From assembly GCA_026391315.1 (NCBI GenBank), contig JAPLDT010000009.1, positions 124,001 through 188,000 of the forward strand: a stretch of DNA of 64,000 nt, given 5' to 3'. Source of the DNA: Bacteroidia bacterium (GTDB lineage Bacteria > Bacteroidota > Bacteroidia > Bacteroidales > Prolixibacteraceae). This document shows, piece by piece, positions 10,325-15,012 of the stretch (positions are counted from its first letter, which is position 1; the number at the start of each line of letters is the position of its first letter). Under the pieces are notes generated by a model. It searched no databases and was not told where the DNA came from. It was given only the letters and a program-made list of their open reading frames with translations. The position numbers and the translations under genes are program-made.

Positions 10325-12105
10325 TTATTCAAAATCCAGTCCAAATTTTTGTTTCATACGGCCAAGTAAAGGATACTTGGCAGACAGTGCATTGAACTTT
10401 TCCTGGTTGGTGTATGGCCTGTTCTGGATCTCCTCCCTGTTTTCTGTCACATTGAATTCTACTGTAATCTTTTCATTGTGCAAAGCAGTATGCAAATGTG
10501 CCAGCAATTTGGGCTTCAAATCCAACGTAATTCGCTGACGCTGAACTTCATTATCCAGATTGTAAACAATATTATAATCCTCGGTGAATATAGGATCTCT
10601 AACAGAAAGGGCCGATCTAAGCTGAGCTGCATCAACGCTTTCTGCAAATTTTTTCCATGCCTCAATGAGTTGGGATGCATCATAGGGTTGCTCTTTGGGA
10701 TTTGTCCCGACTTTCAGACGATCTGCAGCAGGCTCTGACACACCTGATAGTTTACCACCATTGAGCATGCCGGAAATAGATGGAGTTGCGAGATTTTCGG
10801 TATGCTTGTACCTGTTTTTTGACTCCTTGCCGGTTGGCTGGCCAACAGGTGGATTTATTACCAGTGGAGCTGATTCTAATGATTTTGATGATTCAACTGA
10901 TTTAACGCGGGGTACAGACTCTTTTGCCGGGGTCACAGGAGCAACCAGAGAGTCAAAAAGTGGTAAAAGATAGAGACAGGCTATTGATTCGTTAACTGTT
11001 TTTTTTTTAATTGCTCAATGAGCTGCGCACTTCTGATTAGAGCCAATTCAACGAGAAAACGTTGGTTGGACGAACTTTTGTACTGAATGTCACAATCAGA
11101 GGCCAGGATCAGTGCGGCGGTTAAAAAATCTTCGGAACATTGGGATGCCTGTTTTCTGTAGCGCTCCTTGATCTCCCCCCCTACTTCCAGCAATGGTAAC
11201 GTAACCGCATCCCGGCTAATCAGCAGATCACGGAAGTGCTGGGACAAACCAATAATAAAATGGTGGGCATTAAATCCTTTGGACAATATCTCATTAAATA
11301 TCATCAGATTGCCGGAAACATCCCCTTTGATAAATCCTTCTGTCAATTTGAAGTAGTAATCGTAGTCGAGCACGTTCAGATTGGCAATCGTATCCTGGTA
11401 AGTGACAGTGTCTCCACAAAAACTTACTACCTGATCGAAGATAGAAAGCGCATCCCGCATGGCGCCATCAGCTTTCTGGGCGATGACGTTCAGCGCTTCG
11501 GCCTCAATGATTACCTTCTCTTTCCCGGCCACTTCCAGCAGATGTTTCTCAATGTCGGTGATACTGATCCGGTTAAAATCATAGATCTGACACCTGGAGA
11601 GGATAGTTGGGATGATTTTCTGTTTCTCGGTCGTTGCAAGAATAAAGATGGCATGCGCCGGCGGTTCTTCGAGCGTTTTCAGGAACGCATTGAATGCCTG
11701 GGAGGAGAGCATGTGAACCTCATCGATGATGTAAACGCTGTACTTTCCAATTTGAGGTGGTATCCTTACTTTGTCAACAAGAGAGCGAATGTCTTCTACC
11801 GAATTGTTGGAGGCAGCATCTAACTCGTGGATGTTGTAAGAGCGGTTTTCACCGAAAGAGATGCATGATTCACACTGTTGGCATGGCTCAGTATCAGCAG
11901 TCAGATTCAGACAGTTGATTGTCTTGGCAAAAATTCGGGCAGAGGTTGTCTTTCCCACTCCCCTCGGACCGCAAAACAGGTAGGCATGGGCCAGATGGTT
12001 GCTCCTGATTGCATTCTTCAGTGTAGAGGTAATGGAGGGTTGACCCACCACTGTTGTGAAGGTATCGGGGCGATATTTGCGGGCTGATACGATGTAATGT
12101 TCCAT
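10325..12105 (-). CDS. dnaX: DNA polymerase III tau subunit, produced by -1 slippage
   Basis: The full DnaX (tau) requires one -1 frame change at a run of ten A's (minus-strand 11008-10999). Frame 1 (12105 onward) encodes the clamp-loader ATPase; after the run the -1 frame continues without a stop to 10325, giving 593 residues in total, the usual DnaX length in Bacteroidota. The -1 frame product reads KKKTVNESIACLYLLP and then a proline/lysine-rich linker and a C-terminal domain ending RMKQKFGLDFE. The -1 frame is closed by a TGA at 11017-11015, so the frames overlap for only 31 bases around the run. Tau links the clamp loader to polymerase cores and DnaB. A homopolymer read error is the main alternative. 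Confidence 0.8.
10981..12105 (-). CDS. dnaX: DNA polymerase III gamma subunit (unshifted dnaX product)
   Basis: The unshifted frame gives 374 residues: Walker A GPRGVGKTTSARIFAKT (residues 45-61), a four-cysteine zinc module (C64, then CQQCESC at 73-79), the DEXx-type box IIDEVHML, and the clamp-loader lid and domain III. It ends QLKKKQLTNQ, five codons after the ten-A run. The end point falls just after the domain III region, as expected for a functional clamp-loader-only gamma protein. In E. coli gamma is made by -1 ribosomal slippage and in Thermus by transcriptional slippage on an A run; the arrangement here resembles both. Confidence 0.8.
   Translation of the reverse strand: MEHYIVSARKYRPDTFTTVVGQPSITSTLKNAIRSNHLAHAYLFCGPRGVGKTTSARIFAKTINCLNLTADTEPCQQCESCISFGENRSYNIHELDAASNNSVEDIRSLVDKVRIPPQIGKYSVYIIDEVHMLSSQAFNAFLKTLEEPPAHAIFILATTEKQKIIPTILSRCQIYDFNRISITDIEKHLLEVAGKEKVIIEAEALNVIAQKADGAMRDALSIFDQVVSFCGDTVTYQDTIANLNVLDYDYYFKLTEGFIKGDVSGNLMIFNEILSKGFNAHHFIIGLSQHFRDLLISRDAVTLPLLEVGGEIKERYRKQASQCSEDFLTAALILASDCDIQYKSSSNQRFLVELALIRSAQLIEQLKKKQLTNQ
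10999..11008 (-). other. A10 slippery tract of dnaX
   Basis: Ten consecutive A's on the coding strand, read TTA AAA AAA AAA CAG in the unshifted frame. Tandem AAA codons allow -1 ribosomal slippage, and a run this long also allows RNA polymerase slippage. No strong downstream stem was seen, which mildly favours transcriptional slippage. Confidence 0.65.
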
Positions 12106-13463: not shown

Positions 13464-13580
13464 AAATGTGAAAATGGGGCATTTGTGAAAGTCCCTTGTG
13501 TACAAGTTTAATAGCATTAAATAATATGTTCAACTTTTAAGCGCGGCGTAATTTTCACATTTTCACATTTTCACATTTTC
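13456..13580. repeat. GTGAAAAT octamer repeats forming a bidirectional hairpin
   Basis: GAAAATGTGAAAAT units around 13459-13476 face complementary TTTTCACA units (three in a row) at 13553-13580. Together they can pair as a long AT-rich stem between two convergent genes, and the right arm encodes the last residues and stop of the DUF1080 remnant. Confidence 0.5.
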
Positions 13581-14062
13581 TTGATCTTTATATTCCTGAA
13601 CCAAACAACACTACCGTGATCCTGCAATAGGATCAATCCCTTTTCGTGAAGTCCGAAATTTGGAATATCCTTGAATTTACTTGCGGCAATACGTGTATTA
13701 AAATCGTCACTGCCGCGCTCACATTCAGCGACTTTCACCCCATTCAACCAATGCTCAACGTGTTTGCCAGAGCAGAGGATACGGCTGGAATTCCACTCTC
13801 CAACCGGTTTTGTCACTTTATTGGCAGAGGTCGGATACAATTCATAGATGGCGCCAACGGTATGGAAATCGTTCGGTTTCATCCTGCCGTCTTTCATCCA
13901 GGGGTGTCCTGCATCATCCAGAATCTGATACTCGATTCCTAGCGCATCATTGTTGCCCTCTTTGACGAAATATTTCACACCACTGTTACCACCAGCGTCG
14001 ATCATCTTCCAATCACAAACCAATTCAAAATTGCCATATTCCTCTTTTGAAACGAGGTTTTA
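13571..14062 (-). pseudogene. DUF1080 (3-keto-disaccharide hydrolase-like), C-terminal part
   Basis: From about 14056 the minus strand encodes LVSKEEYGNFELVCDWKM and continues to ...VVWFRNIKIKKM, the main body and end of a DUF1080 concanavalin-like domain (3-keto-disaccharide/sugar hydrolase family). An in-frame TAA at 14060-14062 sits immediately upstream and there is no start codon of the expected kind, so this is only the C-terminal two thirds. The matching N-terminal part is at 14770-15006, with an ECF sigma gene between. About eight residues of the family pattern are missing between the two parts. The final codons and stop are embedded in the octamer repeat. Confidence 0.75.
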
Positions 14063-14160
14063 TAGTTGGCAAATTAACCAAGTTTGAGGTGATTTTCTTT
14101 GTACCGGTATGTCTGGAGATTGTTCTACCATTTGTTCAGGGAAGAATGAATCTCAGAAGA

Positions 14161-14682
14161 CTACGTTTGAATAAAAAATGATTTTTTGCAGACCTTTTCT
14201 TTAAGGATGAGAAGCGCTCTGAAAATACGGGTTTCTACAGTACGAAGCGGAATATTGAGCTTTTTGGCAATTTCACTGTTTTTTAGTCCTTCAAACCGAC
14301 TTAAGACGATCACTTCTTTGTAAATATCAGGCATCGAAGCAACAACATCTTCAATGAGTTTTACCTCTTCTTGCTCAATTAAGGATATTTCACCCGACGC
14401 ATAGTGGGCAGCTTCTATTTCTTTTAGTTGCTGAGCCTCATAATGTTTAAATTTACTGACAACTTTCTGATGATTAAGGTAATTGAAGCAGCTGTTTTTA
14501 ACTGATACAAACAAATAAGCTTTGATCTGCTCCACATTATCCCAAAAAATACCCTTCTTCCACACGGTAATAAAAATATCCTGAACAAGATCAAGTGCCT
14601 CATTCTCATCCTCAATGAATTTTAGAGTATAGAGAAAAAGAGGATGATGATATTTTCGGAATATACTGTCGAAATCAGTCAT
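14161..14682 (-). CDS. ECF-type RNA polymerase sigma factor, orphan
   Basis: The 173-residue protein has sigma region 2 (FRKYHHPLFLYTLKFIEDENEALDLVQDIF, about residues 7-37) and region 4 with the helix-turn-helix (MPDIYKEVIVLSRFEGLKNSEIAKKLN and VETRIFRALLILK, about 118-162). It belongs to the Bacteroidota ECF group usually encoded next to a FecR anti-sigma factor and an STN-type SusC. Here no FecR is adjacent: the gene lies between the two halves of a DUF1080 gene on the same strand. The only FecR in the window is at 56314-57306 and lacks an adjacent sigma gene, so the two may be partners separated by rearrangement; this is inference. Confidence 0.88.
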   Translation of the reverse strand: MTDFDSIFRKYHHPLFLYTLKFIEDENEALDLVQDIFITVWKKGIFWDNVEQIKAYLFVSVKNSCFNYLNHQKVVSKFKHYEAQQLKEIEAAHYASGEISLIEQEEVKLIEDVVASMPDIYKEVIVLSRFEGLKNSEIAKKLNIPLRTVETRIFRALLILKEKVCKKSFFIQT

Positions 14683-14769
14683 TTGGAAGCAAAATAAATT
14701 TGTCTGATGGCACTGGATAATGAGTTGATTAAGTTGATTTATTTTCCTATTGACGGTATTTCAGGTATC

Positions 14770-15006
14770 TTACCTTCGTATCAGACCATTCTTTACTGTA
14801 AATACCTTATTGGGATCATTGTTCCGCCCTTCCTTTTTCAGGAATGTGTACCAACCATCAAGATTCTTGCCATTGAACAACTGAATCTTTGCCGTTTTGA
14901 AGCCCTTTTGTTCCACTGGTGAAAGTTCAGAACATCTTGCAAAAACTATTCCCGTGGAATTTATTATAAAGCCCGATAAGATTAGGATTAGAATTGAATA
15001 TTTCAT
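14770..15006 (-). pseudogene. DUF1080 N-terminal fragment with signal peptide
   Basis: The 78-residue frame has a signal peptide (MKYSILILILSGFIINSTG) and the typical DUF1080 beginning LFNGKNLDGWYTFLKKEGR followed by VFTVKNGLIR, then a stop. Family members continue into a GYLVSKxEYGNFEL segment, which is what the fragment at 13571-14062 begins with. It is the last gene of the long catabolic operon, 6 bases after the RhaT-like gene. If only this fragment is made it cannot fold into a full domain. Confidence 0.75.
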
Positions 15007-15012
15007 GAATTT

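Follow-up and report, generated by a model that had tools for sequence, protein, structure and literature searches.

Does the dnaX gene in the window (the whole 64,000-nucleotide stretch of DNA analyzed here) give rise to two products from one template, and if so, by what route does expression pass from one reading frame to the other? In Escherichia coli, a −1 ribosomal frameshift at A_AAA_AAG yields both gamma and tau from a single dnaX gene. In the window, the ATPase part and the tail of dnaX occupy two overlapping frames, with the tail in −1, and an initial reading made from the letters alone (hereafter, the sequence-only reading) took the run of ten A's at their junction for a site of programmed −1 slippage.

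Anatomy of the split dnaX gene

The ATPase frame lies on the minus strand and extends from the ATG at 12105 to a TAG at 10981–10983, a total of 374 codons (10981–12105). Its predicted product, gamma (374 aa, 42.0 kDa), matches positions 1–369 of the NCBIfam gamma/tau profile NF011531 (PRK14971; E = 4.6e-212) and the Pfam family PF13177 (E = 1.1e-45). The putative slip site, an A10 run at 10999–11008 of the minus strand (T's on the plus strand), is the sole homopolymer of at least ten nucleotides within the 64 kb window. The junction reads CAA TTA AAA AAA AAA CAG TTA ACG AAT CAA TAG, with five codons between the run and the TAG that closes frame 0 and ends gamma, while the +1 frame is closed by a TAA (10992–10994, minus strand) in the second codon past the run; similarly close stops are usual in relatives. 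The −1 frame opens 30 nt ahead of the TAG (31 in the sequence-only reading, which had the opening itself right) and continues to a stop at 10325–10327. The tau tail in this frame (10325–10999, minus strand) comprises 224 codons and the stop, and the 369 residues encoded before the slip would bring the slipped product to 593 aa (∼66.4 kDa). The split at the run, the end of frame 0 and the joined length of 593 residues, all claimed at the outset, could be read directly from the DNA. Likewise, the earlier identification of the −1 frame as a DnaX tail is borne out by its match to the C-terminal part of the same NF011531 profile (positions 427–613, E = 1.5e-18); a Pfam search of this tail gave no match at E up to 1. 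The first ATG, GTG, or TTG codon in the tail frame is a GTG at 10936, which would start an ORF of 203 aa.

Read in the slipped frame, the tail shows purifying selection. Among six genomes of the same genus, tail mismatches at the three codon positions of the −1 frame were 0.37, 0.30, and 0.60, with a median dN/dS of 0.17 (8 of 15 pairs computable), and a second genus, represented by 15 genomes, gave 0.34, 0.27, and 0.57 with a median of 0.16 (70 of 105 pairs); synonymous divergence (dS) is close to saturation here. In all six same-genus rows the tail begins with V/I-D/N-E directly past the run, upstream of the GTG start.

Two other single-base frame changes in the window had been cited in the sequence-only reading as a hint of read errors. 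We identified none of this kind; the one broken gene found, a 3-keto-disaccharide hydrolase gene (PF06439) at 13571–15012, is interrupted by an insert of ∼0.7 kb rather than by a single-base error. Its C-terminal piece (13571–14059) matches PF06439 at E = 4.3e-38 and its N-terminal piece (14770–15012) at E = 0.00095, below the curated cut-off, and a gene for an ECF-like sigma factor (14161–14682) lies between them on the same strand. No repeats bracketing this insert were evident.

The run and the frame of the tail among relatives

Of 140 genomes searched in the window's own GTDB family (f1), 130 yielded dnaX at E ≤ 1e-60, and the DNA of 80 of these loci (30 + 20 + 30) was read, the last 30 having been picked to include genomes with a long open frame, so that exceptions are over-represented. 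A run of A9 to A11 is present at the junction in all 80 loci, and the same kind of site occurs in L035, a MAG of Sunxiuqinia sp. Of the 80 tails, 73 lie in −1, four (all A11) in frame 0, and three in +1. The comparison of the site in close relatives, which the sequence-only reading had itself proposed as a check, thus agreed with it, and its worry over read errors is removed by the presence of the run in every locus of the family that was read. A chance run is likewise excluded, because the run is conserved in all of these loci and because the ATPase coding part of 280 loci from a wider sample (277,158 bases) contains no A or T run of at least nine; in 99,000 bases of tail there are two A9 runs.

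This wider sample of the phylum (30 + 80 named records + 20 + 150 loci) is non-random, and part of it was chosen by short and by long open frame. Two entries were excluded before counting, another copy of the window gene (L001) and L002, the other PF13177 hit. With the criterion of at least nine A's in the 330 nt that follow query residue 335, a run was present in 226 of the 280 loci, from which six were dropped, two with the tail cut by the contig end (L054 and L057) and four with a tail shorter than 120 codons (L168, L181, L186, and L276). The remaining 220 readable loci have A10 in 167 cases, A11 in 31, A9 in 18, A12 in three, and A13 in one, and their tails are in −1 (131 loci), 0 (78 loci), or +1 (11 loci). 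The run is also kept in loci of 61–62% GC (L085, L087, and L100). A run is missing from 54 loci. In 45 of them the frame extends beyond codon 500, and production of gamma by means of an A run is therefore not universal. The other nine comprise three loci that carry the element described below for a second family (L092, L190, and L192, the only ones to do so among the 280), five in which either the frame closes early or the locus itself ends (L047, L051, L061, L189, and L274), and L103, in which an in-frame TAG at codon 367, close to where these genes usually break, is followed by another 201 open codons in the same frame. Neither an A run of at least nine nor the element of the second family was found in L103, and its TAG may represent readthrough, another signal, or an error.

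The frame in which the tail lies depends on the length of the run. In 31 loci that share the flanks CA(A/G)CTNACC(T/C)T-A(n)-TAG(C/T)TGA, the tail is in −1 in 27/27 loci with A10, in +1 in 2/2 with A9 (L139 and L143), and in 0 in 2/2 with A11 (L022 and L142). Two loci of one genus, L018 (A10, tail in −1) and L143 (A9, tail in +1), are identical in all printed flanking letters. A one-base difference in a run in one genome may be a homopolymer error, L143, L139, and L022 could each be such a case, and no single case is meant to bear weight. The sequence-only reading had expected a continuous frame with 9 or 12 A's; the lengths that give one are 8 or 11, as A11 relatives are continuous and the tail of A9 relatives is in +1. 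When mapped onto a FastTree phylogeny built from the 280 ATPase proteins, tail frame requires a minimum of 34 changes among run-bearing loci (mean of 30 shuffles 74, lowest 68) and run presence 24 (shuffled mean 50, lowest 44), counts that are rough given the long branches and open forks of this tree. The "−1" of the window is thus one state among three, with the run kept while the tail moves between −1, 0, and +1.

Stops close both of the frames that do not lead into the tail. Both are closed within five codons past the run in 175 of the 220 loci and within ten in 209; among 129 cluster representatives the counts are 91 and 118, as compared with 9.5% (five codons) and 26.7% (ten codons) of 1290 control positions further down the representatives' tails, and with 8.2% and 15.7% of 255 positions in 51 continuous genes that have no run. 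The pattern follows the tail. Where the tail is in −1, closure within five codons occurs for frame 0 in 122/131 loci and for +1 in 117/131; where it is in 0, for −1 in 75/78 and for +1 in 58/78; and where it is in +1, for frame 0 in 11/11 and for −1 in 10/11, with controls for single-frame stops between 0.18 and 0.48. Early stops in the third frame are needed if messages occur in all three frames, and they are not needed for −1 ribosomal shifting.

Slippage at the run and its alternatives

Taken together, the gene's anatomy, the conservation of the site, selection on the tail, closure of both wrong frames, and a tail frame that shifts with run length make it very likely, in our view, that the A10 run serves for programmed transcriptional slippage, with gamma made by default and tau by slippage. 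RNA polymerase would slip on the run and produce dnaX mRNAs that differ in their number of A's. Messages with 10 A's (or 10 ± 3n) would terminate at the TAG five codons later and yield gamma, with the ATPase and clamp-loader domains only, whereas those with 11 (or 8, 14, and so on) would continue into the tail and give tau, and those in the third frame, ending in the second codon past the run, would produce a gamma-like protein. Because only slipped messages would reach the tail, the template itself specifies gamma, and tau would depend on slippage. That slippage occurs, that it is transcriptional in nature, and what gamma:tau ratio would result are matters that we infer from sequence comparison. 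The occurrence of the tail in differing frames while the run is kept points to transcriptional slippage, as in Thermus, and not to a −1 ribosomal shift of the E. coli kind.

The elements that accompany the E. coli site are lacking here. The run is followed by CAG, and the heptamer A_AAA_AAG is not formed; no Shine-Dalgarno-like GGAG or GAGG is found in the 25 nt preceding it, unlike in E. coli, where such an element lies ∼10 nt upstream; and the 50 nt past the run hold no stable stem-loop (MFE −1.0 kcal/mol, z +1.1), compared with −19.7 kcal/mol for the E. coli dnaX control. The E. coli stem-loop has a z-score of only −0.2 against shuffles, so that z-scores are blind to such an element and the absolute energy alone is informative. 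Across four sets of loci (f1-like split, other split, continuous, and +1), mean MFE past the run was between −6.5 and −7.9 and, at a control position 200 nt downstream, between −5.2 and −7.3; the most stable single locus reached −25.4 (f1-like set). Values of z below −2 occurred past the run in 8/76, 3/55, 14/78, and 0/11 loci of these sets, in that order, and at the control position in 4/76, 4/55, 6/78, and 1/11. GGAG or GAGG was present 3–20 nt upstream in 9/76, 8/55, 9/78, and 1/11 loci, and at a control 200 nt further up in 0/76, 1/55, 5/78, and 0/11, a small excess at the site. For the 50 nt around the run itself, mean z was −0.7 to −1.5, which is uninterpretable as shuffling breaks the A run. 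Pairing of the flanks across the run (16 nt before with 12 nt after) gave a mean stem of 5.08 in f1-like loci as compared with 4.69 when permuted (reached in 0/200 permutations) and of 4.38 compared with 4.12 in continuous loci (2/200), with no excess in other split loci (172/200 permutations reached the observed value). This weak excess, corresponding to a hairpin with the A run in its loop, may reflect only relatedness.

The main competitor to transcriptional slippage is programmed −1 frameshifting by the ribosome, in which tandem tRNA-Lys would slip on A_AAA_AAA and gamma would be the unshifted product. The window run contains this heptamer, −1 is the commonest frame of the tail (131/220), GGAG or GAGG is slightly commoner upstream than at the control position, and some relatives have stable sequence past the run; sliding of ribosomes on A runs is also the subject of PMC4363877, entitled "Ribosomes slide on lysine-encoding homopolymeric A stretches." However, a −1 shift is unable to give the tail in the 11 loci that have it in +1, and it leaves the packing of stops in the +1 frame unexplained, both in −1 loci (117/131) and in continuous ones (58/78). 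Together with the bare window site, which has neither the hairpin nor the upstream motif, and the scarcity of that motif even among f1-like split loci (9/76), these observations make a ribosomal −1 shift unlikely; in view of the relatives with stable sequence or an upstream motif, a partial ribosomal contribution is conceivable. Separate synthesis of gamma and of a re-initiated tail, for which the 203-aa ORF from the GTG at 10936 could be adduced, is hardly credible, as the tail frame is conserved directly past the run, upstream of that start codon, and the same tail is fused in frame in 78 relatives.

The two remaining explanations place the cause in the DNA. Replication slippage in the A run could switch tau on and off between cells, and the one-base difference between L143 (A9) and L018 (A10) at the same printed flanks is what such phase variation could leave behind. 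Against it, the run is mostly of length 10 (167/220), the 34 changes on the tree, set beside a shuffled mean of 74, indicate that frame states are largely inherited, and a switch in a replication gene would presumably be costly; we regard it as very improbable. An error of reading or assembly, or decay of the gene, deserves next to no weight. Long homopolymers are indeed prone to error, and further frame breaks in the window were mentioned in the sequence-only reading, but an error is rejected for the window layout because the A9–A11 run and the same −1 break recur across the family, and decay is at odds with the purifying selection seen on the tail in −1.

Transcriptional slippage at the window run can be set beside two described arrangements. 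In Thermus thermophilus, a run of nine A's in dnaX is associated with mRNAs of variable length, of which the unslipped form gives tau and the others gamma (PMC1088944), and these mRNAs occur in all frames (PMC1088944, PMC5009743). The window shares with Thermus a run of at least nine A's and nearby stops in both frames that do not lead into the tail (the TAG after five codons and the TAA in the second codon), and its site may work in the same way, although the layout differs: the template frame codes for tau in Thermus and for gamma in the window. The 78 of 220 run-bearing relatives that are continuous have the Thermus layout. As regards the slippage for gamma and tau originally proposed at the A10 run, the slip site is supported by the comparative data, whereas the "−1" is not a fixed property and the roles of the products are reversed, the unslipped product being gamma in the window and tau in both E. 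coli and Thermus. What is shared with E. coli is the predicted outcome, two products, gamma and tau, of one gene.

The reversed arrangement is mentioned in PMC5009743, and the window dnaX is of a kind already described by Antonov et al. in 2013 (PMC3711429). The dnaX section of that paper gives 17 dnaX genes split in two ORFs, unannotated in RefSeq and all −1 at the DNA level, nine of them with ten A's; it proposes transcriptional realignment, with tau requiring recoding. Elsewhere in the paper, orthologs that differ in the direction of the shift are taken to indicate transcriptional realignment. The window gene is likewise split, with its tail in −1, a poly-A run within the range of 7–10 at the junction, a tau that would need recoding, and an arrangement that is conserved in its family, as given above for the run and for the −1 layout. 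The section reports the −1 type alone, in contrast to the tails in 0, −1, and +1 found here among orthologs in which stops close the two wrong frames. It is this switching of the tail, plus the stops, that is new here; a literature search, with most subscription journals outside its scope, brought up no other paper evidently concerned with the combination.

A different site in a second family

In another GTDB family of the same order, dnaX is split at the same place, and the site has a different form. A dnaX match (E ≤ 1e-40) was obtained in 55 of its 59 genomes, and 52 loci were examined (30 + 20, labeled L283–L332, along with L190 and L192); uncounted were L092, in which 300 nt around the site are identical to L287, one second copy, and three partial hits. 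In 41 of the 52, the gene is split at codons 369–384, with the tail in +1 and at least 180 codons past the stop, and the longest A run near these split sites is eight. All 41 carry AGG CAA (T/C)C(A/G) in the ATPase frame (for example, L287 and L190), a constancy that is partly by construction since exactly these letters were searched for, yet no split locus failed to show it. The element is absent from all 11 continuous loci, three of which (L316, L324, and L332) do carry a run, of A9 or A10. The codon before AGG is GTC in 27 loci, GCG in five, GCC in four, GCT in three, and TCT and GTG in one each; with GTC, the site takes the form GTC_AGG_CAATCACGGGAG. The commonest 15-mer form of the element, AGGCAATCRCRGGAG, occurs 34 times in 33 of the 59 genomes, with coordinates that place each occurrence at dnaX, and the reversed pattern had no hit in these 59 genomes. 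One genome of 86% completeness (G525; L288 and L362) has two copies of dnaX, both with the element, and is perhaps a mixed bin.

Two kinds of locus narrow the place of a shift. As the +1 frame opens only at AGG in L311, and the stop follows directly after TCR in six loci, any single site common to all would be AGG CAA TCR. Three of four +1 tails tested match the C-terminal part of NF011531 (E = 2e-10, 7e-13, and 5e-8), and the fourth matches other gamma/tau models (4e-4). The third frame is closed within five codons in only 9/41 loci, as expected of a ribosomal shift in one direction. AGG is the least used arginine codon in the ATPase parts of this family, yet it is not rare (195/1781). A shift at the stop codon, similar to that of RF2, was considered and rejected, as the stop lies anywhere from 9 to 30 nt past the start of the element and comes before its GGAG/GAGG end in 6/41 loci. 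Re-initiation is also disfavored, since none of the 41 loci has an ATG, GTG, or TTG within eight codons in the +1 frame; within 25 codons, 22 of them do.

For comparison, +1 shifts in yeast occur at CUU_A.GG_C in Ty1 and at GCG_A.GU_U in Ty3 (PMC12661321), and +1 shifts in the mitochondria of Perkinsus are predicted at AGGY (PMC9550989). The site of the second family resembles those of Ty1 and Ty3 in having NNN_A.GG_C in the initial frame, with NNN mostly GTC or GCN, followed by a tail in +1, in all of the split and none of the continuous loci; it differs in being bacterial, in lying in dnaX, and in its conservation over ∼15 nt. By analogy with these elements, AGG_CAAYCR is possibly a new bacterial +1 frameshift signal. 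If confirmed, it would be an uncommon case of a bacterial +1 signal outside prfB.

The pattern across the phylum and the element of the second family are the parts of this work that are worth following. Gene callers may report dnaX genes of these kinds as truncated or frameshifted, and the series of A9, A10, and A11 runs with shared flanks could help to tell slippage by RNA polymerase from slippage by the ribosome. Whether a short DnaX is needed has been controversial (PMC5009743). An A run that is kept in many lineages of the phylum while the frame flips, along with a second, unrelated signal in the same gene and at the same place, constitutes natural evidence for the selection of two DnaX lengths. 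On balance, we think it probable that selection in the Bacteroidota maintains the pair of DnaX products and not the route by which they arise: many lineages would keep some ten A's with the tail moving among frames 0, −1, and +1, and in the split genes of the second family the place of the run would be taken by a new, Ty1/Ty3-like +1 signal, NNN_A.GG_C-AAYCR.
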